A stretch of DNA of 34,659 bases from a virus: positions 1 through 34,659 of IMG/VR virus record IMGVR_UViG_3300035034_001123; one strand, given 5' to 3'. Position 1 is the first letter of the stretch. Each line of letters starts with the position of its first letter. Positions 4,661 through 26,293 of the stretch are shown one piece after another. A program made the translations under genes and the position numbers. Under the pieces are notes generated by a model. The model was given only the letters and a program-made list of their open reading frames with translations, ran no database searches and was not told where the DNA came from.

Positions 4661-4720
4661 ATAAATTATTAATAGTCTCTCCTAATAGTCAAGCCGTTTT
4701 GAACCGCTTTAGAAAATAAA

Positions 4721-4812: not shown

Positions 4813-4817
4813 ATAAA

Positions 4818-4893
4818 TGGAGCCGCCTACCCGATTTGAACGGGTGACATCCATATTACAAGTATGGCGCTCTACCAACTGAGCTAAGGCGGC
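4818..4893 (-). tRNA. tRNA-Thr(TGT)
   Basis: Acceptor GCCGCCT/AGGCGGC, anticodon stem CCATA/TATGG, loop CTTGTAA, T loop TTCAAAT, CCA encoded. Confidence 0.94.
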
Positions 4894-4898
4894 ATAAA

Positions 4899-5111: not shown

Positions 5112-5177
5112 CGAACTTTTTGAACAGTTGATTACAAATTACAAATTAAGGCGGCAATAATAAATTAATGATCACGA

Positions 5178-5245
5178 TATAGTAGATTGGATTCGAACCA
5201 ATGTCTCCGGCCGTCAAGGCCAGCGTATTATCCGCTATACTACGT
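5178..5245 (-). tRNA. tRNA-like gene with anticodon loop CTTGACG (TGA)
   Basis: T arm ATTGG-TTCGAAT-CCAAT and anticodon stem CTGGC/GCCGG are good, D stem AGCG/CGCT. Overall body resembles Glu/Asp tRNAs, variable loop four nt, yet the loop gives anticodon TGA (Ser codon UCA). The acceptor pairs only with a bulge (TAGTA/TACTA) and CCA is absent. Possibly non-functional. Confidence 0.5.
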
Positions 5246-5578
5246 CCATCACAAAATTCACAACTGTTAGCGCAGTTGTTTCAAATGAGGTAATCATACA
5301 TCCACCCAACTCCACTAAAAGTTGAGTTTCAGAAATTGATGGAACCGCTGAACGATTCCGTTACCTTTTCTACACATGGCAGATAGGTTAAAAAGTTTTT
5401 TATTCACCGCTAAGCGTCGAATTTTTACAGGCAATAATTACTTGCCTCCTGACGTAAGGCCTTACGGAGCAGGGAATCTCACAGTATTATTGAGCCATGT
5501 ATCTCCGATAAGGTTGCGGTCCTTGGGAGCCAATACTTCTTTCATCTGTGCTAATCAGACTTCTGCGTGAATAAAAAA
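5246..5578. other. gene-free, hairpin-rich block
   Basis: 333 bp with no convincing ORF. Contains a perfect 7-bp hairpin ACAACTG-TTAGCG-CAGTTGT (5261-5280), CAACT/AGTTG (about 5309-5327), AGGCAA/TTGCCT (about 5430-5453) and the 12-bp palindrome GTAAGGCCTTAC (about 5455-5466). May be a structured RNA; not assigned. Confidence 0.4.
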
Positions 5579-5654
5579 TGGAGCAGAAGGTGGGAGTTGA
5601 GCCCACAACCGTCTCGTTGGAAACGAGGTGCTCTGCCGATTGAGCTACTTCTGC
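5579..5654 (-). tRNA. tRNA-Gly(TCC), copy 1
   Basis: Acceptor GCAGAAG/CTTCTGC, discriminator U, anticodon loop TTTCCAA, T loop CTCAACT, CCA encoded. Confidence 0.92.
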
Positions 5655-5660
5655 ATTAAA

Positions 5661-5748
5661 TGGTGGTGTCATGCGGAATCGAACCACCCCCCCATTACAG
5701 AGAACGGATTTACAGTCCGCGTGTTAGAACCACTAACTTTATGACACC
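5661..5748 (-). tRNA. tRNA-Tyr(GTA), copy 1
   Basis: Class II. Acceptor GGTGTCA/TGACACC, anticodon stem GCGGA/TCCGT, loop CTGTAAA, long variable arm, CCA encoded. Confidence 0.92.
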
Positions 5749-5971
5749 ATATATAAATTGTAGACCTCGTTATACCGACTCTTACGGTTATCTTAGATGA
5801 CGTCAACGGATCAGAAACACATCACAGTTTTCTCGATAAGAGCGACTTATCGATTAATTTACAACACGTCTCATGTAAGCACTATCTGCATGATAATTTG
5901 ACGGGTTTCCCAGCTTTCTTTTGACACAATATGATTAGGGATGCTTGCCCTAAAATTGATCGTTGTAAAAA

Positions 5972-6047
5972 TGGTAGTTCCATTGGGACTCGAACCCAAA
6001 TCTTTTGCTTAGAAGGCAAAGGCCCTAATCCTTTAGACGATGGAACC
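5972..6047 (-). tRNA. tRNA-Arg(TCT)
   Basis: Acceptor GGTTCCA/TGGAACT with G1-U72, anticodon stem TTTGC/GCAAA, loop CTTCTAA, CCA encoded. Confidence 0.93.
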
Positions 6048-6065
6048 ATTTGGGTACATAAGAAA

Positions 6066-6142
6066 TGGTGCACCGAGTGAGATTCGAACCCACGAGCATC
6101 TGCTTGGAAGGCAGTGACAATAGGCCGCTATGTGACCGGTGC
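6066..6142 (-). tRNA. tRNA-Gly(TCC), copy 2
   Basis: Acceptor GCACCGG/TCGGTGC, anticodon loop CTTCCAA, T arm GTGGG-TTCGAAT-CTCAC, discriminator A rather than U, CCA encoded. Confidence 0.88.
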
Positions 6143-6144
6143 GT

Positions 6145-6230
6145 AAAAAGTTATCTATTTCAGATTTAATGTATCTCCGACTTTCTTGTGCCGGTGACTT
6201 TACCATTAGTCCAATTGATAATTCACTTTA
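6145..6230 (-). pseudogene. tRNA fossil
   Basis: Retains a D arm (GAC-TAATGGTAAA-GTC) and an anticodon-like stem CCGGC/GTCGG with an 8-nt loop, but no proper T arm, acceptor stem or CCA. Confidence 0.45.
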
Positions 6231-6233
6231 AAT

Positions 6234-6310
6234 TGGTGGAAAATATCGGTAACGATCCGATCAGCCTACAAACGTGCAAAGTTCGTGCGGGTAACCCACG
6301 CCCATCCCCC
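6234..6310 (-). tRNA. tRNA-Ala(TGC), copy 1
   Basis: Anticodon loop TTTGCAC on CGAAC/GTTTG. Acceptor GGGGGAT/ATTTTCC with three consecutive G-U pairs, T arm ATCGG/CCGAT, CCA encoded. The cleaner copy is at 7318. Confidence 0.82.
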
Positions 6311-6322
6311 ATATAAATTCTA

Positions 6323-6516
6323 CGGTAACTACGGAGACATTCAAAGTTTCTCAACGTATTTACCGACCAACTCAAAGTTGGATTTTATCTTCATTTATTT
6401 ATGGTTTTAAAATTTCACCCCTCTCTGATTACTCAGGTTTGGATGCCATTTTTAAATGACGTTTAACCTAAATTTTTTATTTGGTCTTAGGAACCAATGG
6501 TCAACTTTAATAGTTG
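6323..6516 (-). ncRNA. structured RNA element, copy 1 of 2
   Basis: Paralogue of 10590-10803. A 108-bp core (6391-6498) is identical to 10674-10781 at 103 positions. On the RNA: 5' hairpin TCAACT/AGTTGA, stem-loop TTGGT-TCCTAAG-ACCAA, core with GTCATTT/AAATGGC, then hairpin CCAACT/AGTTGG, then a domain closed by CGGTAA/TTACCG holding TACG/CGTA and TTGAGA...TCTC. The flanking stems differ in sequence from the second copy but pair in the same places. It lies just downstream of promoter 6529-6556 and upstream of tRNA-Ala. Not a family I recognise. Confidence 0.75.
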
Positions 6517-6528
6517 ATGATGTATATA

Positions 6529-6556
6529 ACTATACACGACAGATATTCAAAGTCAA
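6529..6556 (-). promoter_or_regulatory. sigma-70-type promoter
   Basis: TTGACT (6551-6556), 16-bp spacer, TATAGT (6529-6534). Would start about 10 nt before structured RNA copy 1 and drive the tRNAs below 6310. Confidence 0.8.
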
Positions 6557-6598
6557 CCCTTTTTTATAAAAAAGTGAGAAATTTACAATAATTTAAAG

Positions 6599-6674
6599 TG
6601 GAAGCCGATAGGAGAATCGAACTCCCGTCTTCACATTGAGAATGTGACATCCTGGTCCACTAGACGAATCGGCC
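6599..6674 (-). tRNA. tRNA-Glu(CTC)
   Basis: Acceptor GGCCGAT/ATCGGCT with G1-U72, anticodon stem TCACA/TGTGA, loop TTCTCAA, discriminator U, CCA encoded. Confidence 0.9.
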
Positions 6675-6745
6675 ATAATCTCAGATTTGCCAGGCCGGCT
6701 CTGAGAAAGCCTTTGAAGGATACAATACCTCTGGTATGAATCAAA

Positions 6746-6840
6746 TGGTAGTCAGTAAGGGATTCGAACCCTTATCATCCCCTCATCTAGGAGCATAGCC
6801 AGTGTATAAAACTGGAGCATTACCATTATGCTAACCGACC
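6746..6840 (-). tRNA. tRNA with anticodon TAT (Ile), long variable arm
   Basis: Acceptor GGTCGGT/ACTGACT, D arm GCATAATGGTAATGC, anticodon stem CCAGT/ACTGG, loop TTTATAC, perfect T arm AAGGG/CCCTT, CCA encoded. A 25-nt variable region can form CTCC/GGGG, unlike normal class I isoleucine tRNA; bacteria mostly read AUA with a CAT tRNA carrying lysidine. Confidence 0.75.
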
Positions 6841-6938
6841 ATAAAAATAAGTGGTTCCCTCAGTTCACCAATTCACGGTTTAACGGACCGGCGTGTTACG
6901 TTGCGTATTACTTTGACACTACGAAGGAATAAATAGAA

Positions 6939-7013
6939 TGGCAGGTCTAAGAGGATTTGAACCCCTACCCCAAAGACCAAAACTTTGTGTGCTAGCCGTT
7001 ACACTATAGACCC
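6939..7013 (-). tRNA. tRNA-Gln(TTG), copy 1
   Basis: Anticodon stem CAAAG/CTTTG, loop TTTTGGT, acceptor GGGTCTA/TAGACCT, discriminator G, CCA encoded. Confidence 0.92.
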
Positions 7014-7019
7014 ATAAAT

Positions 7020-7110
7020 TAATTGTAAATCATCACTCACATCAAACTGAGTTAACAGCCTCGGACTTCGAACCCGATATAGTGTCCCGTTGAGTGTATT
7101 TATACACAAT
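7020..7110 (-). pseudogene. tRNA fossil (T arm only)
   Basis: Perfect T arm TCGGG-TTCGAAG-TCCGA followed by seven bases and no CCA; no matching 5' acceptor or anticodon arm. Confidence 0.4.
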
Positions 7111-7121
7111 GATTCACAAAA

Positions 7122-7195
7122 TGGCAGGTATACGAGGATTTGAACCCCGAATATTTGGATCAGAACCAAACGTGTTACCGTTACACTATATACCT
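7122..7195 (-). tRNA. tRNA-Gln(CTG)
   Basis: Acceptor AGGTATA/TATACCT, anticodon stem TTTGG/CCAAA, loop TTCTGAT, discriminator G, CCA encoded. Confidence 0.92.
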
Positions 7196-7317
7196 ATAAA
7201 CTTTAAATATCAGAAGCCTTTCGTGTCTTCCCGATGTCCCCCACGTTGTAATTAAATGGCAATCAGTAATTCCCGGTATTCTTCAAAGCCGAAACTTTGT
7301 TATCCGCCGCTCATAGA

Positions 7318-7393
7318 TGGTGGAGGTAAACGGGATCGAACCGATGACCTATTGCTTGCAAAGCAACCGCTCTACCGACTGAGCTATACCCCC
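7318..7393 (-). tRNA. tRNA-Ala(TGC), copy 2
   Basis: Acceptor GGGGGTA/TACCTCC, anticodon loop TTTGCAA, discriminator A, CCA encoded. Confidence 0.93.
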
Positions 7394-7557
7394 ATAAATT
7401 TAAAAGAAATAATAAGGATTTATTACATCTACATAACCGAACTTTTGTTATGTATCTCTATATCGTAAATGTTGGATAGCTCTTACCCATTTATTCATCT
7501 ACATTATATATACAACCTCATATTTCTTTATGGTATCGCATCATGGGATACCTTAAA

Positions 7558-7633
7558 TGGTAGACGATACGGGATTCGAACCTGTGACCTTTGGTATGTA
7601 ACACCACTGCTCTAGCCGCTGAGCTAATCGTCC
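7558..7633 (-). tRNA. tRNA-Val(TAC)
   Basis: Acceptor GGACGAT/ATCGTCT with G1-U72, anticodon stem TGGT/ACCA, loop GTTACAT, CCA encoded. Confidence 0.92.
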
Positions 7634-7646
7634 ATAAAAATTAAAA

Positions 7647-7724
7647 TGGTCGCGGAGACAGGATTCGAACCTGCGGCATCCGACTCCCAAAGACGGCGCT
7701 CTGACCAAGCTGAGCTACTCCACG
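7647..7724 (-). tRNA. tRNA-Pro(TGG)
   Basis: Acceptor CGTGGAG/CTCCGCG, anticodon loop TTTGGGA, discriminator A, CCA encoded. Confidence 0.93.
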
Positions 7725-7823
7725 TAAATAAATTTGATACGCTTTGTCAGTCCTCCGCTTTTGGAGAAACACTTCAGCATTAACTGTTAAGAGGTTCATA
7801 TCTCACCTATCGTGTCATGACAA

Positions 7824-8165
7824 CTAAGTCAAGTCCCACCACATAGAATTCTTCATTTCAACGAAGAGTGTATCATCCCAATCGTTGAGACGACTTCTCA
7901 TTACGTTTTTGTTTTTGGCACGACGTCGTCTACTTGAGGATTGTTTGTAACTCTTAGTATCACCACCGTGATAACCAACAGGGAATCCCTTGTCGAAATA
8001 ACGAGCTGTCTTTTCGATAGTCTTACTGTAATCCTTTTTGGAATTCTCAAATTCTTCTTTCAAAGATTTTTGAGGATACCGACTATAAAAATAGAAAGGG
8101 CACATAATTCTAGCCTTCCTACGAGCTTTCTCTTTATACTTCTTGTTTAGTTCATATCTGTTCAT
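7824..8165 (-). CDS. basic hypothetical protein
   Basis: 113 aa, strongly basic: N-terminus NRYELNKKYKEKARRKARIM and an internal SSSRRRRAKNKN, ending in WWDLT. No family recognised; could bind RNA or DNA by charge. Weak Shine-Dalgarno GAG eight nt before the ATG. Stop codon TAG. It is an island in the tRNA array, so it is probably translated from the unprocessed tRNA transcript. Confidence 0.6.
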   Translation of the reverse strand: MNRYELNKKYKEKARRKARIMCPFYFYSRYPQKSLKEEFENSKKDYSKTIEKTARYFDKGFPVGYHGGDTKSYKQSSSRRRRAKNKNVMRSRLNDWDDTLFVEMKNSMWWDLT

Positions 8166-8221
8166 ATTTACTCAAAAAGAGTAGCCGAACTAAATTGAAC
8201 TTTGTTTTTGTTTTTCATAAA

Positions 8222-8296
8222 TGGCAGGTCTACTCAGAATCGAACTGAGGCTATTTGCTTCAAAGGCAATATTGCTACCACTACAATCATAGACCA
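8222..8296 (-). tRNA. tRNA-Gln(TTG), copy 2
   Basis: Anticodon loop CTTTGAA on TTGC/GCAA, T arm CTCAG/CTGAG. Acceptor TGGTCTA/TAGACCT with a U-U first position, discriminator G, CCA encoded. Confidence 0.85.
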
Positions 8297-8611
8297 ACAA
8301 ATGGGATAAAAGCGCCGCCGTAATATACGTCAAGTTCTCATTAATCCGAGCTTATCTGGATTGACTGAGGCTAACTCTTAAAGTGAGTATTGTCACAATA
8401 TACACAGCTATTAAATTTGTCAATATGAACACGTTACATTATGCCGCAATCCAGCGGAAATACCGCCGTTAAGTTACTCTAAAATTGACACTTCATATCA
8501 CGACGATCCAACCATCCGTATCTTATAAAGAAATTGTCATGATTAGCTGTCACACTAATATTTCCGCACTAAAACGCCCGGCGTCCTAAACATTTAGACG
8601 ACATGAACAAA
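8297..8611. other. gene-free stretch containing a promoter
   Basis: No credible ORF. Apart from the promoter at 8395-8423 it holds short hairpins: AATCC/GGATT (about 8341-8360), GCGG-TATTT-CCGC (about 8455-8467) and ACGC/GCGT (about 8573-8583). Confidence 0.4.
8395..8423 (-). promoter_or_regulatory. sigma-70-type promoter inside the tRNA array
   Basis: TTGACA (8418-8423), 17-bp spacer, TATTGT (8395-8400). Positioned to drive the tRNAs from 8296 downward. Confidence 0.65.
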
Positions 8612-8692
8612 TGGTGGCCAAGGTAGGATTTGAACCTACGTTTCCTTCCGGAATATGGAAGGCGTCCTGTATCGCAATTAGACGACCTGGCC
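8612..8692 (-). tRNA. tRNA with anticodon ATT (Asn)
   Basis: Acceptor GGCCAGG/CTTGGCC, T arm GTAGG-TTCAAAT-CCTAC, anticodon stem CTTCC/GGAAG, loop ATATTCC. A34 is unusual. Enlarged D region. CCA encoded. Confidence 0.78.
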
Positions 8693-8702
8693 ATAAATTA
8701 AA

Positions 8703-8777
8703 TGGAAGCGCATGAGGGTATCGATCCCTCTTCTCAGATTTGAAAAAACTGAATCCTAGCCAGTAGACGAATGCGCC
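8703..8777 (-). tRNA. tRNA-Glu(TTC)
   Basis: Acceptor GGCGCAT/ATGCGCT with G1-U72, T arm GAGGG/CCCTC, anticodon loop TTTTCAA, discriminator U, CCA encoded. Confidence 0.88.
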
Positions 8778-8786
8778 ATAAAAATT

Positions 8787-8863
8787 TGGAAGCACCGGTG
8801 AGACTTGAACTCACGACTTTCGCCTTATGAAGGAGACGCTCTAACCAACTGAGCTACGGTGCC
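8787..8863 (-). tRNA. tRNA-Met(CAT), elongator type
   Basis: Acceptor GGCACCG/CGGTGCT with G1-U72, anticodon loop TTCATAA, T arm GTGAG/CTCAC, CCA encoded. An isoleucine (lysidine) tRNA cannot be excluded from sequence alone. Confidence 0.85.
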
Positions 8864-8943
8864 ATAAATTAATCGTTTTGTAAACTTCTAAATTTCATAT
8901 GATGGTAATGAGTTCAACTTTATTGAACTTTTATTGAATAAAG

Positions 8944-9017
8944 TTGCAGGAATCAGAATCGAACTGATTTTATGTTCTGGTTATGAGCCAGAGAGAATGC
9001 CTTACCCCCCTCCTGCG
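8944..9017 (-). tRNA. initiator tRNA-fMet(CAT), CCA not encoded
   Basis: Acceptor CGCAGGA/TCCTGCA has the initiator-specific C1:A72 mismatch, discriminator A, anticodon loop CTCATAA on TCTGG/CCAGA, T arm ATCAG/CTGAT. The 3' end reads A-CTT, so CCA is added after transcription. The D arm is unusual (GGGG/TCTC). Confidence 0.85.
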
Positions 9018-9074
9018 CTAAATTAATGAACATACGACTAACTTAACATATGTGTTAAACTAACAGTATGAAAA

Positions 9075-9149
9075 TGGTGGGCTATAAGAGGATCGAACTC
9101 CTGTCTCATCCTTCGCAAAGATACGTGTTATCCGTTACACTAATAGCCC
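9075..9149 (-). tRNA. tRNA-Arg(GCG)
   Basis: Acceptor GGGCTAT/ATAGCCC, anticodon loop TTGCGAA on TATCT/GGATG, T loop TTCGATC, CCA encoded. Confidence 0.87.
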
Positions 9150-9154
9150 ATAAA

Positions 9155-9230
9155 TGGTGGATATGATGGGCAACGATCCCATAACCTTTCGTTTAAGAGA
9201 CGAATACTCTGCCGATTGAGTTACATATCC
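9155..9230 (-). tRNA. tRNA-Lys(CTT)
   Basis: Acceptor GGATATG/CATATCC, anticodon stem TTCGT/ACGAA, loop CTCTTAA, T arm ATGGG/CCCAT, CCA encoded. Confidence 0.93.
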
Positions 9231-9244
9231 ATGAAAATTATAAA

Positions 9245-9319
9245 TGGTCCCTGAGGAGAATTTCGAAATCTCGACCTATCGGTTATCAACCGATTGCTCT
9301 CCCTCTGAGCTACCCAGGG
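9245..9319 (-). tRNA. tRNA-Ile(GAT)
   Basis: Acceptor CCCTGGG/CTCAGGG, anticodon stem ATCGG/CCGAT, loop TTGATAA, CCA encoded. The intact isoleucine tRNA of the array. Confidence 0.92.
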
Positions 9320-9456
9320 TTGAAAAATTATCATCTATTATAAAGTTGTGTTTGTTGTTAGGGTTACGAATTATCTACACTCTGTTTACCCAACATTACA
9401 ACCAACAAAGCCGTTCCTCAATTACTGGTGTCGCTGTTTTAATCCAGATCAGAAAA

Positions 9457-9531
9457 TGGCGCCGTTACGGAGAATTGAACTCCGATTTGAAGATTGACAA
9501 TCTTCCGTCCTAACCGTTAGACGATAACAGC
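9457..9531 (-). tRNA. tRNA-Asp(GTC), copy 2
   Basis: Acceptor GCTGTTA/TAACGGC, anticodon stem GAAGA/TCTTC, loop TTGTCAA, discriminator G, CCA encoded. Confidence 0.92.
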
Positions 9532-9538
9532 ATAAAGA

Positions 9539-9614
9539 TGGTAGGAGCGATGGGGCACGATCCCACAACCAATGAATTAAAAGTTCACGGCTCTACCGAT
9601 TGAGCTACACTCCC
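9539..9614 (-). tRNA. tRNA-Lys(TTT), copy 1
   Basis: Acceptor GGGAGTG/CGCTCCT, anticodon stem GTGAA/TTCAT, loop CTTTTAA, CCA encoded. Confidence 0.92.
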
Positions 9615-9679
9615 ATAAAAAGTTAATTACATAACACGGATTCGAACCCAACTGGAACCTTTTCCGTTATACAAAAAGG

Positions 9680-9751
9680 AGTCCTCTATCGGATTCACAC
9701 CGATTTCATTCTCATGTACTTGAGAATACGTTACTATCTAACCGAGAAGAC
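9680..9751 (-). tRNA. tRNA with irregular anticodon loop
   Basis: Seven-pair acceptor GTCTTCT/AGAGGAC, D arm GTTA/TAAC, T arm ATCGG-TGTGAAT-CCGAT. The anticodon arm is ATTCTC/GAGAAT around an 8-nt loop AAGTACAT, so the anticodon is ambiguous. The 3' end reads T-CCT. Confidence 0.65.
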
Positions 9752-9756
9752 ATAAA

Positions 9757-9831
9757 TGGTAGGCCTGAGGAATATTGAAATCCTGCACATCTCCTTAAAA
9801 GGGAGCCGCTCTGCCTCTGAGCTACAGACCC
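9757..9831 (-). tRNA. tRNA-Lys(TTT), copy 2
   Basis: Acceptor GGGTCTG/CAGGCCT with G1-U72, anticodon stem CTCC/GGAG, loop CTTTTAA, CCA encoded. Confidence 0.91.
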
Positions 9832-9941
9832 ATAAAATTAATTACAACCCGTCATCCAAGGTGTAAACATTGTAACATAATCGAGTTAACGATTGAATGG
9901 ATATGTCTTCGAAGAATCTTAATTTTTCTTCGGTTGTAAAA

Positions 9942-10034
9942 TGGTGGAAGAAGAGAGAATTGAACTCTCACTGTGTCTTAGCACACTACGGGTTTACAAT
10001 CCGCGCCGACTTAACCAATATTCGGGTCTCTTCC
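9942..10034 (-). tRNA. tRNA-Tyr(GTA), copy 2
   Basis: Class II. Acceptor GGAAGAG/TTCTTCC, anticodon loop TTGTAAA, variable arm GTGT/ACAC, T arm GAGAG/CTCTC, CCA encoded. Confidence 0.9.
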
Positions 10035-10292
10035 ATAATAAAATTGCAACACAAGAAATCGAATTAAAACTTGTGTAAGTCTGTTGATTCGCCAGTCCGG
10101 TCTGGTTCAACGAAACCTCCTACGATTTTTTAAATTAATGATGATAGACATTCACAACACAGTTATTAACTGAGAGGGGTGGCTGATGTTTACCTTGCGG
10201 CATCCGTTACATCTTTGTTCCACACCTATTACGTGTTACCTATCATCCGACAAGGATACAGTCGAAACGTTTTACGATCCGTTTATAAAGCG

Positions 10293-10364
10293 GGTGGTAT
10301 ACGAGATTTGAACTCGCTCACTTTGCGTCACAGGCAAATATGCTGCCAATACATCAATACCACC
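10293..10364 (-). tRNA. tRNA-His(GTG), CCA not encoded
   Basis: Acceptor GTGGTAT/ATACCAC with an extra G at -1 opposite discriminator C, the histidine identity pair. Anticodon stem TTTGC/GCAAA, loop CTGTGAC. The 3' end reads C-CGC. Confidence 0.9.
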
Positions 10365-10373
10365 ATAAAAATC

Positions 10374-10476
10374 ATGATACACCCAACTTGCATGGATTGT
10401 ATAGTTCGATAACGACATCACCTTAAAGGTTCTGTTTTTGAGGATATCGACCCTCAACGTTTTCATTAGGTATCAT
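10374..10476 (-). tRNA. tRNA-like RNA, probably decayed
   Basis: Seven-pair terminal stem ATGATAC/GTATCAT with a T-arm-like ATCCA-TGCAAGT-TGGGT directly beside it, as in a tRNA. The rest (hairpins TTGAGG/CCTCAA and ACCTT/AGGT, 103 nt in all) does not make a standard cloverleaf and CCA is missing. Confidence 0.35.
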
Positions 10477-10488
10477 AAATATTTAAAT

Positions 10489-10578
10489 TGGCTCCGTTTC
10501 GAGGATTCGAACCTCGCCCACCTTTCGATGGTCATCGGATTAACAGTCCGTAGCTTTCACCAAGCCAGCCCAAACGGA
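10489..10578 (-). tRNA. tRNA-Asn(GTT) with long variable arm
   Basis: Acceptor TCCGTTT/AAACGGA, anticodon stem CGGA/TCCG, loop CTGTTAA, discriminator G, CCA encoded. The variable arm CCATC-GAAA-GGTGG makes it class II, unlike normal asparagine tRNA. Confidence 0.85.
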
Positions 10579-15759: not shown

Positions 15760-15771
15760 TCATTTTTAATT

Positions 15772-15880
15772 GTACTGTACTTTAGTACTGTACTTTACTT
15801 TAGTACTGTACTTTACTTTAGTACTGTACTTTACTTTAGTACTGTACTTTACTTTAGTACTGTATTTTAGTACTGTACTT
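15772..15880. repeat. 18-bp iteron-like tandem repeat
   Basis: Four perfect copies of GTACTGTACTTTACTTTA at 15785-15856, flanked by 13-bp truncated copies at 15772-15784 and 15857-15869 and an 11-bp piece at 15870-15880. Next to it (15881-15912) is a nearly pure A/T stretch. Such an array beside an AT-rich tract is typical of replication origins, and it separates the two replication operons; an origin role is inference. Confidence 0.9.
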
Positions 15881-16113: not shown

Positions 16114-17262
16114 TTATAAACCTTCTAAGATTGATAATATACAGCTGGCGAAATTCAGTTCCTTGTTCGCTGATACAACGTCATCAACTTGCCAACTGTG
16201 TAGCGCCTTAATTGTTGTTGCTTTCGCATTTGGAGCATAATCATCTAACTTCTCATACAGATAATCTGCATACTCTTGGAAATCTCCAATATCATTATCA
16301 GCAAGAAACTGTCTACAATCCTTGAGTTTCGTTTTCTTGTCACTTCCAGCTTTTAAGATTTCAATTAACTTAAACTTAGCATCACTTTCGATAACTTGTT
16401 TTTCTGAGATTGATAGTTTACCACTCACCGAATGTTGTTGGGCATTTTGAATAATACGTCGGATGTCAGGATAGTATTTCATTAACGCCTTGAAATCAGA
16501 AACCTCATATGTAACATTCTCTTTGTCAAGTATACCAGCGACATGTTTAGCCACATCTGACTTCGATGGTGGTTGTATATGGAACACCTGACAACGGCTT
16601 ACAAGCGGTTCAATAAGCTTCTCATGATAGTTACAGGTCAAAATGAATCTTGTCTGACCAGCATAAGTCTCCATAATATTACGGAGTGCCATCTGAGCAT
16701 GAATATTCATTCTATCCGCTTCATCTAATATCAAAACTTTCAATCGGTGAAATCCTAAATTCCCAGCAAACGTTTTTACCTTATCACGGATATCATCTAT
16801 TCGACTTTCATCAGATGCGTTGATGTATAAACTATCACATTCAATGCTCGATGCTAACATCTTAGCGATTGTAGTATTATGGCAAATTACACCGTCGGAT
16901 GTCACATACGTATGGGGATCGTCTAATGCCATATCATACACATCTCGGTATTCATTATACGTTGTATTCACAATCTTACGGTTTCCATGAATCGTGTCAA
17001 TCGAGTCACAGTCTTTAATATACTTCCACTCACCGTTTGACTTCACCACATGGTTTTCATCACATTTGATGCTACCTGTATCGTAGTCATATGTATGCAC
17101 ATGACCTTGTTTACGAACCAAATGATTTATATCCACATATTCACCATTCAATGTTTTTATTTTTAAATGTCGGGTTATCTCAACTTCTTTATTGAGGTTA
17201 AATAACTCCATTCCAAGAAAATTAAATAATTCTCCGATAGGTAATCTATATTTTTTTTTCAT
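16114..17262 (-). CDS. clamp loader subunit, C-terminal part with split-intein C fragment
   Basis: 382 aa. Residues 1-129 (16876-17262) are an intein C fragment: block B KCDENHVVKS, block F/G VYDMALDDPHTYVTSDGVIC ending in the obligatory HN. The following residue is threonine, a valid splice nucleophile. Residues 130-382 (C-extein) begin TTIAKMLASS, which continues the Walker A motif left unfinished in gene 17273-17554, and go on with Walker B LKVLILDEAD, the sensor LTCNYHEKL, SRC and a helical collar domain. Joined to its 66-aa N-extein the product is 319 aa, the size of T4 gp44/RFC small-subunit-like loaders that open the sliding clamp with ATP. No homing endonuclease lies in the intein. 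Last gene of the replication operon. Confidence 0.92.
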   Translation of the reverse strand: MKKKYRLPIGELFNFLGMELFNLNKEVEITRHLKIKTLNGEYVDINHLVRKQGHVHTYDYDTGSIKCDENHVVKSNGEWKYIKDCDSIDTIHGNRKIVNTTYNEYRDVYDMALDDPHTYVTSDGVICHNTTIAKMLASSIECDSLYINASDESRIDDIRDKVKTFAGNLGFHRLKVLILDEADRMNIHAQMALRNIMETYAGQTRFILTCNYHEKLIEPLVSRCQVFHIQPPSKSDVAKHVAGILDKENVTYEVSDFKALMKYYPDIRRIIQNAQQHSVSGKLSISEKQVIESDAKFKLIEILKAGSDKKTKLKDCRQFLADNDIGDFQEYADYLYEKLDDYAPNAKATTIKALHSWQVDDVVSANKELNFASCILSILEGL

Positions 17263-17272
17263 TATGTAAATA

Positions 17273-17554
17273 TTATATTTCGAATTTTGCTAATATTTTC
17301 CCTTCATCTTCAGATACCTCAATTTCTATATCAATGTATTCGGAATAATCCAGACATTTGCCCGTACCTGGTTTCCGTGAATAAAATAAAAGATGGGGAA
17401 TTTCCCCGGTCTTGATATACTCAGCTACACGTTCCTTAATCTGTTCGTTACCCAAGTATTCATTCAAGTCATGTGGCCGGTATTTCTCCGCCCAAATATA
17501 CATTGAATCTCTTTTATCTACTTTTTCACTTTCGTCGTTTTCAAAGAATGACAT
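17273..17554 (-). CDS. clamp loader subunit, N-terminal part with split-intein N fragment
   Basis: 93 aa. Residues 1-66 are the N-terminus of a gp44/RFC-type AAA+ clamp loader: WAEKYRPHDLNEYLGNEQIK and HLLFYSRKPGTGK, ending at the Walker A lysine. Residues 67-93 (17276-17356) start with cysteine (CLDYSEYIDIEIEVSEDEGK) and stop; this is an intein N fragment of only 27 residues. The stop is followed, 10 nt later, by the start of the matching intein C gene. Without protein trans-splicing neither piece could form an ATPase, because the P-loop threonine is in the other gene. Insertion between GK and T is the site also used by archaeal RFC inteins (family knowledge). Confidence 0.92.
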   Translation of the reverse strand: MSFFENDESEKVDKRDSMYIWAEKYRPHDLNEYLGNEQIKERVAEYIKTGEIPHLLFYSRKPGTGKCLDYSEYIDIEIEVSEDEGKILAKFEI

Positions 17555-17557
17555 AAC

Positions 17558-18325
17558 TTACTTTCCTTTTTTGGGTTTTATTTTTCTAACTTTCTTCGTA
17601 GCTTTCTTCTTAGCCGATTTCTTCTTAACTGAGTTCTTCAGCTTATTTTCTTCAATCGTAGATTCTTCGTTCATATACTCTTCAATTCGTATATTGTCTC
17701 TAGCCAATCGATGTGCTAACTTGTCATTGAAATCTTCAGCGTTGATAGGCAATTCAATCTGAACGGGTGGATTTTTCTTTAACGTAGGAAGGCCAATGAA
17801 ATCAATCACACCCAGTTCTTGTGCTGTCTTAGCATCGAACCAATAGTCATTTGTTTTGTGAGAATACGCCTTATCCACCCACCAATCAAGTGATTTGTTG
17901 GTTTGGTCAGCAAAAACTCTCACAGCTCTTTGACATTGTTTCTCAAATATCTTTTGAGTTTCTTTCAATTCTTCCATCTTTCCGTAATTCATCATCGCGG
18001 CATCGTGGAACATGAAGATTGATTGAGGTTGTGCCCATCGAAAACCACCTTGTGCCATTAACAGACAACCTGCTGAACATGCATATCCTAAATTGACTGT
18101 ATGATACGCAATCTCATCCGAATTAACAATTGCTTGAATTCCTTCAAAAGCGAAAACCGAACCACCAGGTGAGTTAACATAAATGAAAGCTTCTGTCACT
18201 CCTTCATCCACACTCTTTCTGTGAAATTCTACAAACTTGTTCAACAAATCATCATCAAACGTACCGATGATATTGAAGTATGGAATTTTAGGCGTACCCG
18301 TTTGTGTAACTGTCTCTGTATCCAT
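17558..18325 (-). CDS. ClpP-like serine protease with lysine-rich tail
   Basis: 255 aa from the ATG at 18323-18325, one base after the clamp stop; a TTG 18 nt upstream is possible. ClpP/SppA fold: FIYVNSPGGSVFAFEGIQAI (oxyanion region), serine in YACSAGCLLM, histidine in SIFMFHDAAM, and aspartate in NDYWFDAKTAQELGVIDFIG. The last ~60 residues form a basic tail (SVKKKSAKKKATKKVRKIK) not found in host ClpP. Phage homologues act as capsid maturation proteases or interact with host Clp; which applies here is unknown. Lies between the clamp and the clamp loader. Confidence 0.88.
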   Translation of the reverse strand: MDTETVTQTGTPKIPYFNIIGTFDDDLLNKFVEFHRKSVDEGVTEAFIYVNSPGGSVFAFEGIQAIVNSDEIAYHTVNLGYACSAGCLLMAQGGFRWAQPQSIFMFHDAAMMNYGKMEELKETQKIFEKQCQRAVRVFADQTNKSLDWWVDKAYSHKTNDYWFDAKTAQELGVIDFIGLPTLKKNPPVQIELPINAEDFNDKLAHRLARDNIRIEEYMNEESTIEENKLKNSVKKKSAKKKATKKVRKIKPKKGK

Positions 18326-18326
18326 A

Positions 18327-19064
18327 TTAATCAGATTGTTCAACCTCTGTTAGAAAGTATTCCGAAACATACTCTTCTGTATCGAATTTGATATAAGCAA
18401 GTCCCTTCGATGAAACATACAACTTAGCATCAGTAGCTTCTGAGTTAGCACTCAATAGTTCTTTGAAATACTTAGCTGCGAAACTTATAGGCTTACCAAC
18501 TGTATCCTTACCGTCTTCTGGAGTGATATCCAACGCAATTCGGTTAGAGTTAATCGAAGCATATCCGATAATCATATCCAACTTCTGTGTCTTCTTGTTC
18601 ATAAGAAGTGTAAATGTATTAACATCGGGCAAAGCATTCTTCGCTTTAATAAAACGATTCATGAAATCCTTGTTCAAAAGTAAAACCACATCCCAATCTG
18701 GAAGTTGCTTTACAATAGGAACTTTAGGAATAACCGATGTATCTGACAACATGTAATTAACCTTTGTATTCTTATCAGAAAAACCCAAAGATATAACTCT
18801 GTCGTCTGACGTTACAGTATCAACATCAATCTCACTGTTTAAAACTCCTAAGAGTTGCTTCAATTTACCTGTTTCAAGCACACCCATTTCATAGTCGCCG
18901 AAGTTTTCATTCTTCAACTCTACGTTCCCAAGGATATGTTTTTCCTCTGAAATGAATGATGTCTTTAACTTGTTGTCATCTTCCGATGAAACAATCTTTA
19001 CACTTTCTACACACCCATTCAAGTTGTAACGCTTGATGAATCCGTCTAATTTTGATTTATCCAT
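18327..19064 (-). CDS. sliding clamp (gp45/PCNA-like)
   Basis: 245 aa starting MDKSKLDGFIKRYNLNGCVE at 19064; the longer frame to 19121 would start inside the promoter. Two similar alpha/beta halves: the first ends near the PKVPIVKQLPDWDV linker, the second has IALDITPEDG, PISFAAKYFKELLSANSEAT and ends GLAYIKFDTEEYVSEYFLTE. This pattern is that of T4 gp45-type clamps, which trimerise around DNA and tether the polymerase. Context supports it: polymerase upstream, clamp loader downstream. The promoter at 19093-19121 allows separate expression. Confidence 0.88.
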   Translation of the reverse strand: MDKSKLDGFIKRYNLNGCVESVKIVSSEDDNKLKTSFISEEKHILGNVELKNENFGDYEMGVLETGKLKQLLGVLNSEIDVDTVTSDDRVISLGFSDKNTKVNYMLSDTSVIPKVPIVKQLPDWDVVLLLNKDFMNRFIKAKNALPDVNTFTLLMNKKTQKLDMIIGYASINSNRIALDITPEDGKDTVGKPISFAAKYFKELLSANSEATDAKLYVSSKGLAYIKFDTEEYVSEYFLTEVEQSD

Positions 19065-19092
19065 AATATTATTTTGTTTAACGTAACTACAT

Positions 19093-19121
19093 TTATAACA
19101 GTTGTTTATACCGACTGTCAA
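19093..19121 (-). promoter_or_regulatory. promoter of the sliding clamp gene
   Basis: TTGACA (19116-19121), 17-bp spacer, TTATAA (19093-19098). It overlaps the end of the NADAR gene and leaves a leader of about 25 nt. Confidence 0.72.
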
Positions 19122-20578: not shown

Positions 20579-21130
20579 TTAAGTTTTTAGTTTTTTGATT
20601 TCGTCGCAAATTCCATATTCGATACATTCCTTCGAACTTAAATACGTATCTGTGGATGTTAAAAGTTTTTCTATAACCTGTTTCTTTGTAAGTGACGTAC
20701 ATTTTGTGATGTGATCTAACATTCTCTGCTGTGTCATATCTTGTTCTTTTCTAGTAGCTATGAGTTCGTGGTGTTGTCCACTCACACCCCATGAATACGG
20801 ATGACTCATGATAGACGTATTTGGTGTGAGAATTCTATTTTTTCCGTTTATGAAAATAAGAAATCCACAACTACAAATCTGACCCAACCCAACTGTATTT
20901 ATTGGTATTCTACTAGAACTCATGATATCAATGATAGCGAATCCGTCTGATATTTCTCCGCCTGCGGAATTTACAATCATAGTCAATTGTTTATGTTCCT
21001 TTTTTATATTGGATTCTAAAACCCACCTAATAACAGCGGTTGACGAAGACGCGTCTATATCTCCTGATAGAATAAAGATTCCATCGTCTTGTAATACTTC
21101 ATATGAAGCTTCATTTGTTTCTTCTGACAT
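20579..21130 (-). CDS. second ClpP-like serine protease
   Basis: 183 aa, compact. MIVNSAGGEISDGFAIIDIM, catalytic serine in GQICSCGFLIF, histidine in SIMSHPYSWG, aspartate in STDTYLSSKECIEYGICDEI. All three triad positions fit ClpP. Its length is close to host ClpP subunits (about 195 aa), and it lacks the basic tail of the paralogue at 17558-18325. Could form mixed rings with the paralogue or with host ClpP; unproven. It starts 5 nt after the polymerase C-terminal gene. Confidence 0.88.
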   Translation of the reverse strand: MSEETNEASYEVLQDDGIFILSGDIDASSSTAVIRWVLESNIKKEHKQLTMIVNSAGGEISDGFAIIDIMSSSRIPINTVGLGQICSCGFLIFINGKNRILTPNTSIMSHPYSWGVSGQHHELIATRKEQDMTQQRMLDHITKCTSLTKKQVIEKLLTSTDTYLSSKECIEYGICDEIKKLKT

Positions 21131-21135: not shown

Positions 21136-22617
21136 TTAAAATGAGAAGAATTCATCGGCTGATTCAGTCTTCTTCAATTTTGGTTTGGGTTCTTTTTTGG
21201 TTTTGTCTAATTTTACTGTCTTAGCACCTTCTTCATCATCGTCACCGAAGAACGTATCGATAATAACAGCTCCTTCACTCGGATAATCCCATTTCAGTGC
21301 ATCATAGAAATCGTCAAGTTTCTTGGCCATTTCCTTTTCGTATAATAAGCGTCCATCTGCATAAGTATCAATGAACTCAGTCAATTCTTTAGGATCGTGA
21401 TAACCACGGAAGGCAATCTCTTCAATACCCAAGAAGTTACGTTTCACATAAACATACTTGATTTTCTCACCATTTGTAATTGGTTCGACATTCTTATCCA
21501 ATCCATGATGTTTTATGAACTTGTTGAATGTAATAGCGGCCTTGACGTGGGCTGGATACCCTTTCGTCTTTCCATCTTCAACAATCTTCGGAAACTCACC
21601 CATAACAGCATCCTTACAATGTTTTTCAAATTTAGCAATATCTTTGATACCTGTGTTTCTAGCAATATCCACCACGTCAAACGATGACAATTTTCGTTTA
21701 AATTCTATAATTTTATCATCTACAATACGTTTTGGTGTTTTTAATAAGAAGTCTGAAATTACACCTGTTTTTTCTTCAGCGTTCAACATAAATTCTTTAA
21801 ATTTAGTCGGAAACGACGAACGAACAACATCCAATCCTTTGATGTGGAATTTATCCACATTCTTACATTTCTCCAAATCATATATTTTGTGGATACAATA
21901 TCGTTTTTTTGCTATCCATATACCGGTGATACCGACAGTTTCACCTGCTGTTTTAATAACATGGTCTTCACAATTAAAACACATTGTCATCAAGTTATCA
22001 TAAAATGAATTGACTACCTCAACTGTTTCGTTTGCTATTTTAATTGTTAATGATTTTGATTTCTCGGCGTCTGTGATGTTTAGTAATTTAATTAACGGTT
22101 CATTTGACATGTAATTTGAGTCGGTATCCACATACGTTACGTAATCATTATGTTTCACCGATTCATCTGCTCCATTATCCAACAAAGTCTGTATGTAATA
22201 TTGATTAATTTTCATCGATGATGATTTAATTATATCTTGACCGGTTAAAGTTACGGATAAAGCATTATCCAAATCATAAAACCGAAAAGATTCTAATCCC
22301 AATACACCATACAAGGAATTTAGTAGGATCTTTTGTACCAATTGTCGTTTGTCATAAAATCTCTCAGATACGGCATCGTTGTTATTAGATGCCTCCTTCA
22401 TTTTCGTTTGAAATTTCTGACGGTCTTCATACCAAACATCTAAAATATCCGCTAACAACCCACGTTTGTTTTTTTCGTATATTACACCTGCCGACGAAAT
22501 TGATAGATTGTTTTTATTCATTAAAGAAATGAATTCTGATTTGGTTAATGATTTAATGTCACCTCCCACGTCGATTGTGATGACTGCGTCCTCTTTTATA
22601 TAATTAAATGTATTCAT
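21136..22617 (-). CDS. family B DNA polymerase, C-terminal part (motifs B and C)
   Basis: 493 aa. Contains polymerase motif B KILLNSLYGVLGL (residues 96-108) and motif C YVDTDSNYM (about 162-170) with both catalytic aspartates, then the thumb domain. The extreme C-terminus SADEFFSF resembles the clamp-binding peptide at the end of T4 gp43. The N-terminal 90 residues cover the segment normally following motif A. It is separated by 27 nt from 22645-23886, which ends after motif A; together they make 906 aa, about the size of T4/RB69 gp43. The two chains must assemble to give one active site. Confidence 0.93.
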   Translation of the reverse strand: MNTFNYIKEDAVITIDVGGDIKSLTKSEFISLMNKNNLSISSAGVIYEKNKRGLLADILDVWYEDRQKFQTKMKEASNNNDAVSERFYDKRQLVQKILLNSLYGVLGLESFRFYDLDNALSVTLTGQDIIKSSSMKINQYYIQTLLDNGADESVKHNDYVTYVDTDSNYMSNEPLIKLLNITDAEKSKSLTIKIANETVEVVNSFYDNLMTMCFNCEDHVIKTAGETVGITGIWIAKKRYCIHKIYDLEKCKNVDKFHIKGLDVVRSSFPTKFKEFMLNAEEKTGVISDFLLKTPKRIVDDKIIEFKRKLSSFDVVDIARNTGIKDIAKFEKHCKDAVMGEFPKIVEDGKTKGYPAHVKAAITFNKFIKHHGLDKNVEPITNGEKIKYVYVKRNFLGIEEIAFRGYHDPKELTEFIDTYADGRLLYEKEMAKKLDDFYDALKWDYPSEGAVIIDTFFGDDDEEGAKTVKLDKTKKEPKPKLKKTESADEFFSF

Positions 22618-22644: not shown

Positions 22645-23886
22645 TCAATCGAATTTCAATTTAACTTCATCCCAATTCAATACCTTACCCACCTTAGTTT
22701 CGGGTGAAATGTTTAAACTTCTAATGATTGAGGGGTATAGTGAATTTATATCGCAGGAATATATCCAATCGTATAATCCAGGTATAGGCTTCTTAACATA
22801 AGCCCCCTCGAACCCAATTTCTTCATCGTCATCTGTTTTTCTTTTTCGTTTCGGTCTGTTTGGAGCGACCAAATTCTTTCTACGAAGATAAGTTAACAAA
22901 GCACCTTCAAGGAACTTGCTTGAGTATTGAATAAAATCATAAGGAACATGACAAATGTGACAAATTGTAATCGCCAATTCGATGAACTTATTTTTAGAAT
23001 CGATGGCACCAACGATGTCAATGTCAGTCAAGTTATACTGAATGAACTTGTCGATGTCTGTAACAAACAAAGTCTTCAAGTCTGTATCATATTCAAGTTT
23101 ATCCATATTGACTTCAATTTTACCGATAGTTCCCAATCGATAGTTTGGTTGTTCCGTATACGTAAACTGTTTATACAGACTCAGATAATCCAAACTTGAT
23201 ACCCCAGCGATGGTCATTACATAACTTCCATCTTTTCGTTGTGGTGAACAGTAAGCAATTCCAATCGGACTTAAGCGACACGCTTGTTTTCGGCCAAACG
23301 CCTTCTTGATACGATTGAACAGATAAGGATTGTCAAATCCGTCAACGTTCCAACCTGTCAAAATGTTTGGCCGGATTCTTTCGTATTCAACAAAAAATGC
23401 TTCAATTAAATCTTCTTCGTCGTCAAATCGTCTAATGATAACTTCTCCGATATCATCAGATTGTTCCGAATCAGAAACTAAATTCTCTTCGTCAACAACG
23501 AACACATATCGAATACCTGTTTCAGCATCTTTGAATGCTATTGAAATAATAGGTTGCCAAGGGTCATCAGGAGAAGCAAATCCACCTTCTGTCTCAACCT
23601 CAATGTCGTAGTTGAAAACGATGTTTCCTTCACTAATGTCATCTTGGTCTCCATACAAATCAATCAGTGTTCGTGTTTCTGGTAACACATCAGATTCAAA
23701 TAAACCGTCGGCATGATCTTGATAGTCAAATACTTTTTCTAATTCATCTCCGTAAATTGAAGTATGTGAACCACCCGCCCGCTTACAATAAGCATAACGT
23801 TCATATTCAAATTCTACATATCCTTGTTCATCATCCCATAAATGGACAATATTGGATCGTCTATCATAAAAAATATTCCTATACAT
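22645..23886 (-). CDS. family B DNA polymerase, N-terminal part (exonuclease and motif A)
   Basis: 413 aa. 3'-5' exonuclease motifs: ExoI FNYDIEVETEG, ExoII LTGWNVDGFDNPYLF, ExoIII YNLTDIDIV. Near the end is polymerase motif A, DINSLYPSIIRSLNISPETK, with the catalytic Asp at residue 379. The chain stops 35 residues later, so the palm is cut between motifs A and B. The N-terminal domain (FYDRRSNIVHLWDDEQGYVE) is gp43-like. No intein signatures at the break, so joining would be non-covalent. First gene of the replication operon, under the promoter at 23896-23923. Confidence 0.93.
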   Translation of the reverse strand: MYRNIFYDRRSNIVHLWDDEQGYVEFEYERYAYCKRAGGSHTSIYGDELEKVFDYQDHADGLFESDVLPETRTLIDLYGDQDDISEGNIVFNYDIEVETEGGFASPDDPWQPIISIAFKDAETGIRYVFVVDEENLVSDSEQSDDIGEVIIRRFDDEEDLIEAFFVEYERIRPNILTGWNVDGFDNPYLFNRIKKAFGRKQACRLSPIGIAYCSPQRKDGSYVMTIAGVSSLDYLSLYKQFTYTEQPNYRLGTIGKIEVNMDKLEYDTDLKTLFVTDIDKFIQYNLTDIDIVGAIDSKNKFIELAITICHICHVPYDFIQYSSKFLEGALLTYLRRKNLVAPNRPKRKRKTDDDEEIGFEGAYVKKPIPGLYDWIYSCDINSLYPSIIRSLNISPETKVGKVLNWDEVKLKFD

Positions 23887-24290: not shown

Positions 24291-25613
24291 TTATGTTTTT
24301 ATATATCTATCTTTAGTAAATATTATATTGGGTTCTTGACGTAACCGGTTTCTATAACCGGTCCAACCGATTCTGATTCCCCATCCCATATAATCTAATA
24401 TATCTCGTTTCGACACGTTACCTCTATCTAAAATAAACTGTCGTAACTTTTTATAAGAATCTGTCTCTTCCTTGATTTGTGGCAGATCAAATATATCCCA
24501 ATTGTTGAACCACTTTGGAACTTGTTTATCCCATGTCATATCCTTGATTCTATCCGATACATACTCTGAGGCGTCACTTATATCTTGATTGTTGTTATCA
24601 TCCAATATAGCTAACAATTTTGACTTGAAATCGTCGTTCCCGTCATAAAACAAAGGATACTCTTCACCCATTAACTCAGGGTAACATAATTTGTTTGGTA
24701 CAAGATATGGAACGCCCCTGCTCATACCGTCAGTAGTCGAAATACTCCAAGCACTATATTTTTGAAAGAACCCAATTCCAACGACCATTTTTTTAATAAA
24801 GTTTAAGTAATCGGATCGTTGAGGAAATCGAACTCTTTCAATATACGGCCGTTCAGCTTCAATTAAAGTTCCGTAAACTTTGAAGTCTTGACGTTCTTCA
24901 TAAATTTCATCCATCACTTTCAAGAACTTTTTCCAGCCGGTGTATTCTGAAGGTCTATGGTTAAATAAAATGCTATTAGGAATTTTGGGAATCGGTTTTA
25001 GGTCATAGTCATCAACTCCGAGATAGTGGGGTTTAATAATGGTTTGGAGTCTTTTTAATGTATTTTCATTGAATGTATCTTTACATTTTTCCAATACTAG
25101 ATTCCGAAGCCACATTGTATTAACACCACATTCATCCATTTCCAACGTTCCTAACAGATTTTGATTTATAAGTCGTTTGTTGTATGCTGTGTTTTCATTA
25201 ACTTCATACCAATGACAATATCCAATTATCTTCGGAGACAGATGGGTATTGTTGTGTAATATGTTTGAGATTTGAGCGGTGTGTTCTGGAAGGTGAGAAT
25301 ATATAATATCCCAATCTTTATTTTCCCAATCAACTAATTTTAAAAATCGTTTCGTATCAAAGTCGCACCGCATGGTATTTGGGTATGACGGGAAATCATA
25401 AATTACTTGTTCAACATTATCGAACTCATTTAATGCTTTAACATTATATGGAACAGGTATTGTCCAATGTATCTTGTCCGATAGTTGAGGAATTACATTT
25501 CTTATAACAATGGTAAAAGAGTCTGCTTCTAAGTTTTTTTGGAATGTCCAGTTCGGCCATACTAGAATCTTATAATCATATTCAGCATCTGTTGTGTCTG
25601 TAAAAAAATTCAT
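24291..25613 (-). CDS. putative GT-B glycosyltransferase
   Basis: 440 aa. The second half has the layout of a GT-B C-terminal domain: SILFNHRPSEYTGWKKFLKV, KVYGTLIEAERPYIERVR, and VGIGFFQKYSAWSISTTDGM followed by SRGVPYLVPNKLCYPELMGE, where the S-x-x-EAM-like region would bind the sugar nucleotide. The first half has the Rossmann-like start YKILVWPNWTFQKN. Acceptor unknown; phage enzymes of this type modify DNA bases or surface glycans. Its first 16 codons are duplicated beyond the GIY-YIG gene at 26296-26343. Confidence 0.6.
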   Translation of the reverse strand: MNFFTDTTDAEYDYKILVWPNWTFQKNLEADSFTIVIRNVIPQLSDKIHWTIPVPYNVKALNEFDNVEQVIYDFPSYPNTMRCDFDTKRFLKLVDWENKDWDIIYSHLPEHTAQISNILHNNTHLSPKIIGYCHWYEVNENTAYNKRLINQNLLGTLEMDECGVNTMWLRNLVLEKCKDTFNENTLKRLQTIIKPHYLGVDDYDLKPIPKIPNSILFNHRPSEYTGWKKFLKVMDEIYEERQDFKVYGTLIEAERPYIERVRFPQRSDYLNFIKKMVVGIGFFQKYSAWSISTTDGMSRGVPYLVPNKLCYPELMGEEYPLFYDGNDDFKSKLLAILDDNNNQDISDASEYVSDRIKDMTWDKQVPKWFNNWDIFDLPQIKEETDSYKKLRQFILDRGNVSKRDILDYMGWGIRIGWTGYRNRLRQEPNIIFTKDRYIKT

Positions 25614-26293
25614 AATCTTTTAAGTTTGAAATGTTTGTGTTGGCCTGCTCGGAAGAGTATATCTCCGTTAATTTTATCACGTTTCGTGAATTTATTCTGT
25701 GTATTAAAATTCTTTATATACTCGATGACATTCGACTTTCCTTTTATAACTACATCATGATTGACCAACGAATTTGTTACACGGTAACTCTTTTGTAAAG
25801 ACTCCGATAATTTTCGTTTGTGTTTGTCGGTTAATGGGGTTCCTCGATGTAAATCGGCTGCTATACTAATAAGTTTAGACATGTCTCTACCTTTACATTT
25901 GTTACTCATCATATGTTTCCATTTCTCTGTCTTTTTATATTTTCCACTGTTGATTCTGAACTCAATATCTTTCCTCGAATATCTAGTTGAGTTTCCTCCT
26001 GATTTCATATTATATAAATTGTCGCCATCCTTAAAGTATTCAATCATACAGTGTTCGTGAAAATCTAATAAATCATATGAGCTAACATTCTCATACAGAA
26101 CTGAGAATTCAAAACTACCACTGCCATACTTGTCCCAAGCGTTTTGTAAATGTCGGTTTTTATGTTTGTTTGAATTTAACCGATTTATGTGAATCCATCT
26201 TATATAGTTTTCATATAGTTGAATAGTCTGTCCAATATATACTTTTCCATTTACTAAATTTTTTATCTTATATATTGTTCCGTTAATTTCCAT
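25610..26293 (-). CDS. GIY-YIG homing endonuclease
   Basis: 227 aa. GIY-YIG nuclease domain at the N-terminus: GTIYKIKNLVNGKVYIGQT, the conserved RW-I-H-x-R-L region, NAWDKYGSGSFEF with the E-type metal site in HEHCMIEYF. A NUMOD3-like DNA-binding motif follows (HRGTPLTDKHKRKLSESLQK). Stop overlaps the start of the glycosyltransferase gene by 4 nt. It is bounded by a 48-bp direct repeat (25566-25613 and 26296-26343) that encodes the start of the glycosyltransferase, indicating insertion with duplication of the target 5' end. Confidence 0.92.
   Translation of the reverse strand: MEINGTIYKIKNLVNGKVYIGQTIQLYENYIRWIHINRLNSNKHKNRHLQNAWDKYGSGSFEFSVLYENVSSYDLLDFHEHCMIEYFKDGDNLYNMKSGGNSTRYSRKDIEFRINSGKYKKTEKWKHMMSNKCKGRDMSKLISIAADLHRGTPLTDKHKRKLSESLQKSYRVTNSLVNHDVVIKGKSNVIEYIKNFNTQNKFTKRDKINGDILFRAGQHKHFKLKRL

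Follow-up and report, generated by a model that had tools for sequence, protein, structure and literature searches.

How is a sliding-clamp loader made when its gene stops within the Walker A motif and resumes in a second gene? The question is raised by the window, a 34,659-base genome fragment of a virus (IMG/VR record IMGVR_UViG_3300035034_001123), in which two adjoining minus-strand genes, gp44N (17554-17273) and gp44C (17262-16114), encode the two pieces of a T4 gp44-type clamp loader. An initial annotation, made from the letters of the sequence, had proposed that a split intein interrupts the loader at the Walker A lysine. Our analysis leaves us highly confident that a class 1 (Cys1/Thr+1) intein, naturally split at an N-terminal site of the S1 type, joins the halves. 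Atypically split inteins are a known kind, and the clamp loader is a new host gene for them; the searchable literature, which covers few subscription papers, gave us no earlier account of a split intein in a clamp loader.

A clamp loader divided at its Walker A motif

An open reading frame (ORF) check reproduced the proposed gene layout with all of its numbers. The gp44N gene encodes 93 aa and stops at TAA. Its first 66 residues, the N-extein (17357..17554), end with the Walker A sequence RKPGTGK, as placed by the ORF, a phrog_168 match and alignment of the spliced sequence. They are followed by the 27-aa N-terminal intein fragment (IntN), CLDYSEYIDIEIEVSEDEGKILAKFEI (17276..17356; Cys1 codon 17356-17354), which was delimited with a hidden Markov model (HMM) of relatives and an alignment of seven inteins. 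A 10-nt spacer, TATTTACATA (17263..17272), separates gp44N from gp44C, which encodes 382 aa. These comprise a C-terminal intein fragment (IntC) of 129 aa (16876..17262), which starts MKKKYRLPIGELF and ends DGVICHN, as supported by the relatives' HMM, a PDB profile and an AlphaFold model, and a 253-aa C-extein (16117..16875) that starts directly after VICHN with TTIAKML, supplying Thr+1, and contains the Walker B sequence LDEAD and an SRC motif. Within IntC, the N3 motif (block B) holds His71 (codon 17052-17050), the C2 motif (block F) Asp110 and His117, and block G His128-Asn129.

The two genes match successive parts of phrog_168, a family of phage clamp loaders. Residues 17-66 of gp44N align with profile positions 7-55 (E 1.4e-12) and residues 130-376 of gp44C with positions 56-305 (E 7.7e-51), so the profile resumes exactly at the proposed splice point. 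The spliced sequence is 319 aa long, the gp44-like size that had been anticipated, and it aligned through the junction with the structures of RfcS (1iqp, E 4.1e-41) and T4 gp44 (3u5z, E 8.6e-30). This alignment with known loaders also agrees with the initial annotation in placing the insertion directly after the Walker A lysine, before the threonine. The spliced sequence carries GTGKTT (Walker A), LDEAD (Walker B) and SRC motifs together with its homology to known loaders, and by sequence the product is a gp44/RfcS-type sliding-clamp-loader ATPase with an intact Walker A motif. Because the insertion separates the lysine of Walker A from its threonine, the unspliced halves would lack a normal nucleotide site, and loader activity, and with it phage replication, would need trans-splicing. 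A second, intact loader gene may be present elsewhere in the genome of which the window is a fragment.

We propose that both genes are translated from one message, with gp44C probably translated by termination-reinitiation across the 10-nt spacer. Judging from the fold and from homology, the short IntN would dock into a largely pre-formed IntC and complete the Hint fold. An N-S shift at Cys1, transfer to Thr+1 and cyclization of Asn129, for which the catalytic residues are present, would excise 156 residues and leave GTGK-TT. Since GTGK-TT would be created by splicing, ATP binding by the loader would exist only after the reaction.

Relatives with the same split and the intein domain

Scans of IMG/VR with the single sequences of IntC and of the whole gp44C protein gave no match, and finding the family needed an alignment and degenerate DNA patterns. 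A two-sequence profile found L006, a DNA pattern for GTGKCL(D/G)Y found L012, L013 (= L014 = L010) and L018, and a DNA pattern for the C-terminal splice junction found L021. No IntC relatives were found in GTDB bacterial and archaeal genomes, and a plasmid search returned nothing beyond toxin HINT domains (E 0.1-0.2). Among phage records LR756508.1 was the sole full match, with weak matches to inteins of the Vibrio phage vB_VmeM-32 helicase and of Campylobacter terminase. Four candidates (L007, L009, L015 and L016) were rejected as contiguous inteins in other genes, and six (L008, L017, L019, L020, L022 and L023) as chance pattern matches.

The same split point occurs in five phage lineages, represented by the window, L021, L013, L012 and L006. 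In these, IntN is 27 aa (window, L012, L013) or 28 aa long (L006, L021) and ends with K(K/Q)YEI or close to it, and IntC starts with M(K/I).K(F/Y)R(L/I)P(I/V)G(E/H)L(F/Y). Members of the split family have an IntC of 129-133 aa and exteins of 316-325 aa, and their inteins are 43-64% identical to each other. The window intein, with a whole Hint domain, is 42-55% identical to its relatives. Encoded in two genes, with an IntN in the range of about 15-37 aa (PMC13014065) and conserved in nature, it classes as a naturally, atypically split intein.

We built HMMs for IntN and IntC from the relatives alone, leaving the window out, and searched its six-frame translation. The IntN model matched at E 4.7e-15 across all of its positions (1-27 of 27, up to the stop codon; next match E 4.8), and the IntC model at E 2.6e-49, likewise over its full length (next match E 0.72). 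Chance is excluded because both models match precisely gp44N and gp44C and nothing else in six frames. Together with the relatives that share the split, these matches bear out the split-intein reading and the 27-aa length that had been given for the N fragment.

The sequence and predicted structure point to a class 1 intein. In the numbering of the joined 156-aa intein, Cys1, His98 (the N3 histidine), Asp137 and His144 (C2), the penultimate His155 and the terminal Asn156 are invariant in the seven aligned inteins, and the +1 residue is Thr in all seven. A PDB profile search with IntC found the solved inteins 7qil (E 5.8e-5) and 7cfv (E 0.0024). With the AlphaFold model of IntC, Foldseek placed VidaL (6vgv) first at E 3.3e-4, and nearly all of the leading matches were inteins. 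The ten best VIA-align matches of this model were also inteins nearly throughout, with Z 8.2-8.8 over 104-120 residues; these scores are barely above the tool's chance-warning level, and the sequence profile agrees with the intein matches. A model of the contiguous L018 intein likewise had inteins as its leading structural matches. With the class 1 residues and the Hint fold in place, the window intein is predicted to be active in splicing.

Two split sites have been distinguished near the N terminus of inteins, S1 after beta2, used by VidaL and PolB16, and S2 after helix 1, used by AceL-TerL and GOS-TerL (PMC13014065). In the structural alignment IntC residue 3 corresponds to Npu DnaE residue 12 and IntC residue 1 to VidaL residue 19; IntC starts with the LPIGELF helix, and helix 9-15 is retained. 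An IntC start at residues 12-19 of solved inteins places the split at an S1-like site. The likeness to atypical phage-terminase inteins drawn in the initial annotation thus holds for the short IntN but not for the split site, which is that of VidaL and PolB16 and not the S2 site of AceL-TerL and GOS-TerL.

Endonuclease remnants, contiguous relatives and rival explanations

The spacer between the two genes measures 10 nt in the window, 107 nt in L021, 121 nt in L013, 205 nt in L012 and 1018 nt in L006. In L006 it contains endonuclease coding sequence with frame breaks that ends LHHIDFDKKMIK...NLIFLCHNCHAKTTNA, an HNH-type motif, and weakly matches a phrog HNH family (E 0.0093). C-terminal endonuclease remnants are found in L012 (LHHIDYDKRNDSRENLIFSCHSYHSKT), L013 (NLIFLCHSCHART) and L021 (IFLCHNCHSKT), and the six pairwise alignment scores among the spacer peptides of these four lineages were all above all 200 shuffles. 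An HNH homing endonuclease gene or its remnant is present in every one of the four longer spacers, and the 10-nt spacer of the window has none. The shared remnants indicate that an endonuclease gene once occupied the split site in the shared past of these genes, decayed, and vanished in the window, which by this comparison represents the end state.

Two relatives carry the same intein family at the same insertion point in one contiguous gp44 gene: LR756508.1, a 484-kb uncultured phage (42% identity to the window intein), and L018 (47%). We saw neither annotated nor reported as an intein. The L018 intein is without just the stretch that flanks the split, LPIGELF segment included, and retains an SDDEYQIL tail that is otherwise confined to split IntNs. 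In the loader (extein) tree L018 is sister to the split L012 (support 99/97), and in the intein tree it groups with L012 and L013 (100/99). The simplest reading is that L018 is probably a re-fused split intein; the alternative is that the other lines split independently at the same residue. The LR756508.1 intein is without an SDDEYQIL-type tail and may perhaps keep an older contiguous state, the rooting of the tree being weak.

Several observations weigh against trans-splicing in the window. A Shine-Dalgarno-like sequence (AAAGGAAA) lies upstream of gp44N and none precedes gp44C, though few genes of the window have one. Position 95 of the joined intein, in the N3 motif, is Asp across the family, as opposed to Thr in most inteins, and the window intein falls below the Pfam Intein_splicing cut-off, so it would stay hidden in a Pfam-only annotation. 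The AlphaFold model of IntC alone is moderate (mean predicted local distance difference test score 72.5, below 50 at the C-terminal end), as expected without IntN. Trans-splicing is predicted here from genes and sequence comparison. Finally, the frame of gp44C, offset by +1 from that of gp44N, is open 14 nt into gp44N, a detail absent from the initial annotation, and one indel near CAAAATTCGAAATATAA, within about 17289-17276, would merge the two into a single ORF.

The last point, along with the existence of contiguous relatives, would suit a rival view in which gp44N and gp44C are really a single gene, broken by an error of sequencing or assembly, or one with a contiguous intein, re-fused as in L018, and a single miscalled base. 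We consider this very unlikely because the split is conserved in four other phage lineages. The window stop follows KFEI, exactly where the IntNs of L012 and L013 stop (KYEI and QYEI), and the IntC start MKKKYRLP resembles MKKKFRLP of L013. In the relatives with spacers of 107-1018 nt a stop closes the C frame before the N gene, so that one indel cannot merge the frames, and what the contiguous L018 intein lacks is exactly the split region. The 14-nt frame overlap would also permit a programmed +1 frameshift at the end of gp44N, yielding a contiguous intein that splices in cis. This is barely conceivable, as relatives with the same IntN and IntC ends show no overlap, no recognizable shift site is present, and the fused linker would have no counterpart in the contiguous relatives. 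Reading the gp44N stop through an alternative genetic code was rejected, since this stop and IntC are in different frames and TAA is the usual stop codon of the window.

The halves might instead assemble unspliced, as do the split NrdA of phage Aeh1 and gp43A/gp43B, around an intein that is dead or merely cleaves. Endonuclease-split genes that function without splicing are known (PMC2988022), and the window phage also divides its DNA polymerase between two ORFs that contain no intein. However, no catalytic residue has been lost and the Hint domain is conserved as a whole, and unspliced assembly would leave the Walker A motif cut between Lys and Thr, with some 155 residues of foreign sequence at the nucleotide site; we give it only a slight chance of being correct. 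We conclude that a naturally split intein that restores the clamp loader is by far the best explanation of the locus.

Neighboring genes, further split inteins and known systems

Upstream of gp44N lies a candidate sliding clamp (gp45) gene (18327..19121, minus strand) that matches phrog_12062, a family without a given function. It was identified by synteny and by resemblance to genes of L006 and LR756508.1, and in L006 a similar gene in the gp45 position (3951-4688) directly precedes gp44N. Two different ClpP-like protease genes (17558-18343 and 20579-21130) lie near the replication genes, and DNA polymerase B is divided between two adjoining ORFs (22645-23886 and 21136-22617), which have no intein and are separated by a 27-nt gap that contains stops; some T4-like phages have a similar gp43A/gp43B pair. 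A tandem array (15771-15880) of an 18-bp AT-rich unit, TGTACTTTACTTTAGTAC, in 5.5 copies with 97% matches, lies downstream of the clamp loader. The window also contains a cluster of 36 tRNA genes in 10 kb (744-10578), repeated isoacceptors included, a free-standing GIY-YIG-type homing endonuclease gene (25610-26293) and, at the contig edge (34414-34659), the C-terminal end of a TnpB/Cas12f1-like protein.

Further split inteins were seen in other phages. L006 (4695-9240) and L012 (9547-11878) have, in addition to the atypical intein at Walker A, one of the conventionally split kind at Walker B (LDE|C), with an IntN of 104 and 102 aa and an IntC of 40 and 42 aa, respectively; that of L012 matches TIGR01445 (E 9.7e-8) and TIGR01443 (E 1.1e-7). 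With split inteins at both Walker motifs, the loader of these two phages is encoded in three genes and would be a natural ATPase assembled through two steps of trans-splicing. Immediately upstream of its split loader, L012 also carries the C-terminal half of an IMPDH split intein (L012:8619-9212). In Vibrio phage vB_VmeM-32 (L003:954-4029) the gp41 helicase is split at a P-loop site, with a 27-aa IntN, CFVAGEEIEVEMNEQTHQEYLRFKNEN, and an endonuclease-like ORF between the halves (954-1652 and 2863-4029), which are without annotation in the record; its IntC is a distant relative of the clamp-loader family (E 9e-11). The phage of L018 has UvsX/RecA split in the P-loop, GLEQ|SGKS (N gene on the minus strand of L047; L045:5418-6680, minus strand), with an apparent IntN of 13 aa (CVTEDTLIDVIIE), compared with 15 aa for the shortest characterized IntN (PMC10189870). 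Its gp41 helicase is also in pieces (L045:1382-4267, minus strand): it has a P-loop split intein with an endonuclease-like ORF in between, and a second split intein starts there. That in this phage group split inteins in or beside Walker A of several replisome P-loop ATPases (gp44, gp41, UvsX) make splicing a shared post-translational gate on replication, responsive to conditions such as redox or temperature and more than tolerated parasitism, is an idea we think improbable.

The insertion point between Walker A Lys and Thr is a known intein hot spot, P-loop sites being common for inteins (PMC5874633). Archaeal RFC small-subunit inteins (Pyrococcus PRK04132 models) share the host family and apparently the GK|T insertion point; these models match gp44N past the 66|67 junction, to residue 69-82, and gp44C from IntC residue 107-108. 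They are contiguous and archaeal, and the likeness is one of host family and site. Further parallels are the natural short-IntN split inteins VidaL (IntN 16 aa), PolB16 OarG (15), AceL-TerL (25) and GOS-TerL (37) (PMC13014065, PMC10189870, PMC11766414). Like the window intein these are split near the N end, with an IntN of 15-37 aa, a long IntC and class 1 chemistry; several occur in phage-type host genes, and VidaL is the best structural match of the window IntC. However, their hosts are terminase or PolB and not the clamp loader, the window family is distinct in sequence (best solved-intein match E 5.8e-5), and it combines the S1 split with a longer IntN tail and, in the relatives, an endonuclease remnant at the split. 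The few natural split inteins with a short IntN thereby gain a new host and a separate sequence family. Such inteins are valued in protein semisynthesis, since an IntN of 27 aa is accessible to chemical synthesis.

The fractured genes that Dassa et al. described in 2009 (cited in PMC11766414) reportedly comprise split inteins, in gp41, NrdA/E and IMPDH, whose halves flank a free-standing endonuclease. L006 is alike in that an intein breaks a phage replication gene and an endonuclease gene separates the two halves, whereas the gp44 family is split near the N terminus and not at the central endonuclease site, and its endonuclease has an HNH-type motif. An endonuclease ORF between the intein halves is found in L006, remnants of one in L012, L013 and L021, and none in the window, where 10 nt are left. 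One gene and one site thus present the stages of a fractured gene, with the endonuclease present, decayed or gone and the intein re-fused, and this series makes the origin and reversion of split inteins directly testable.
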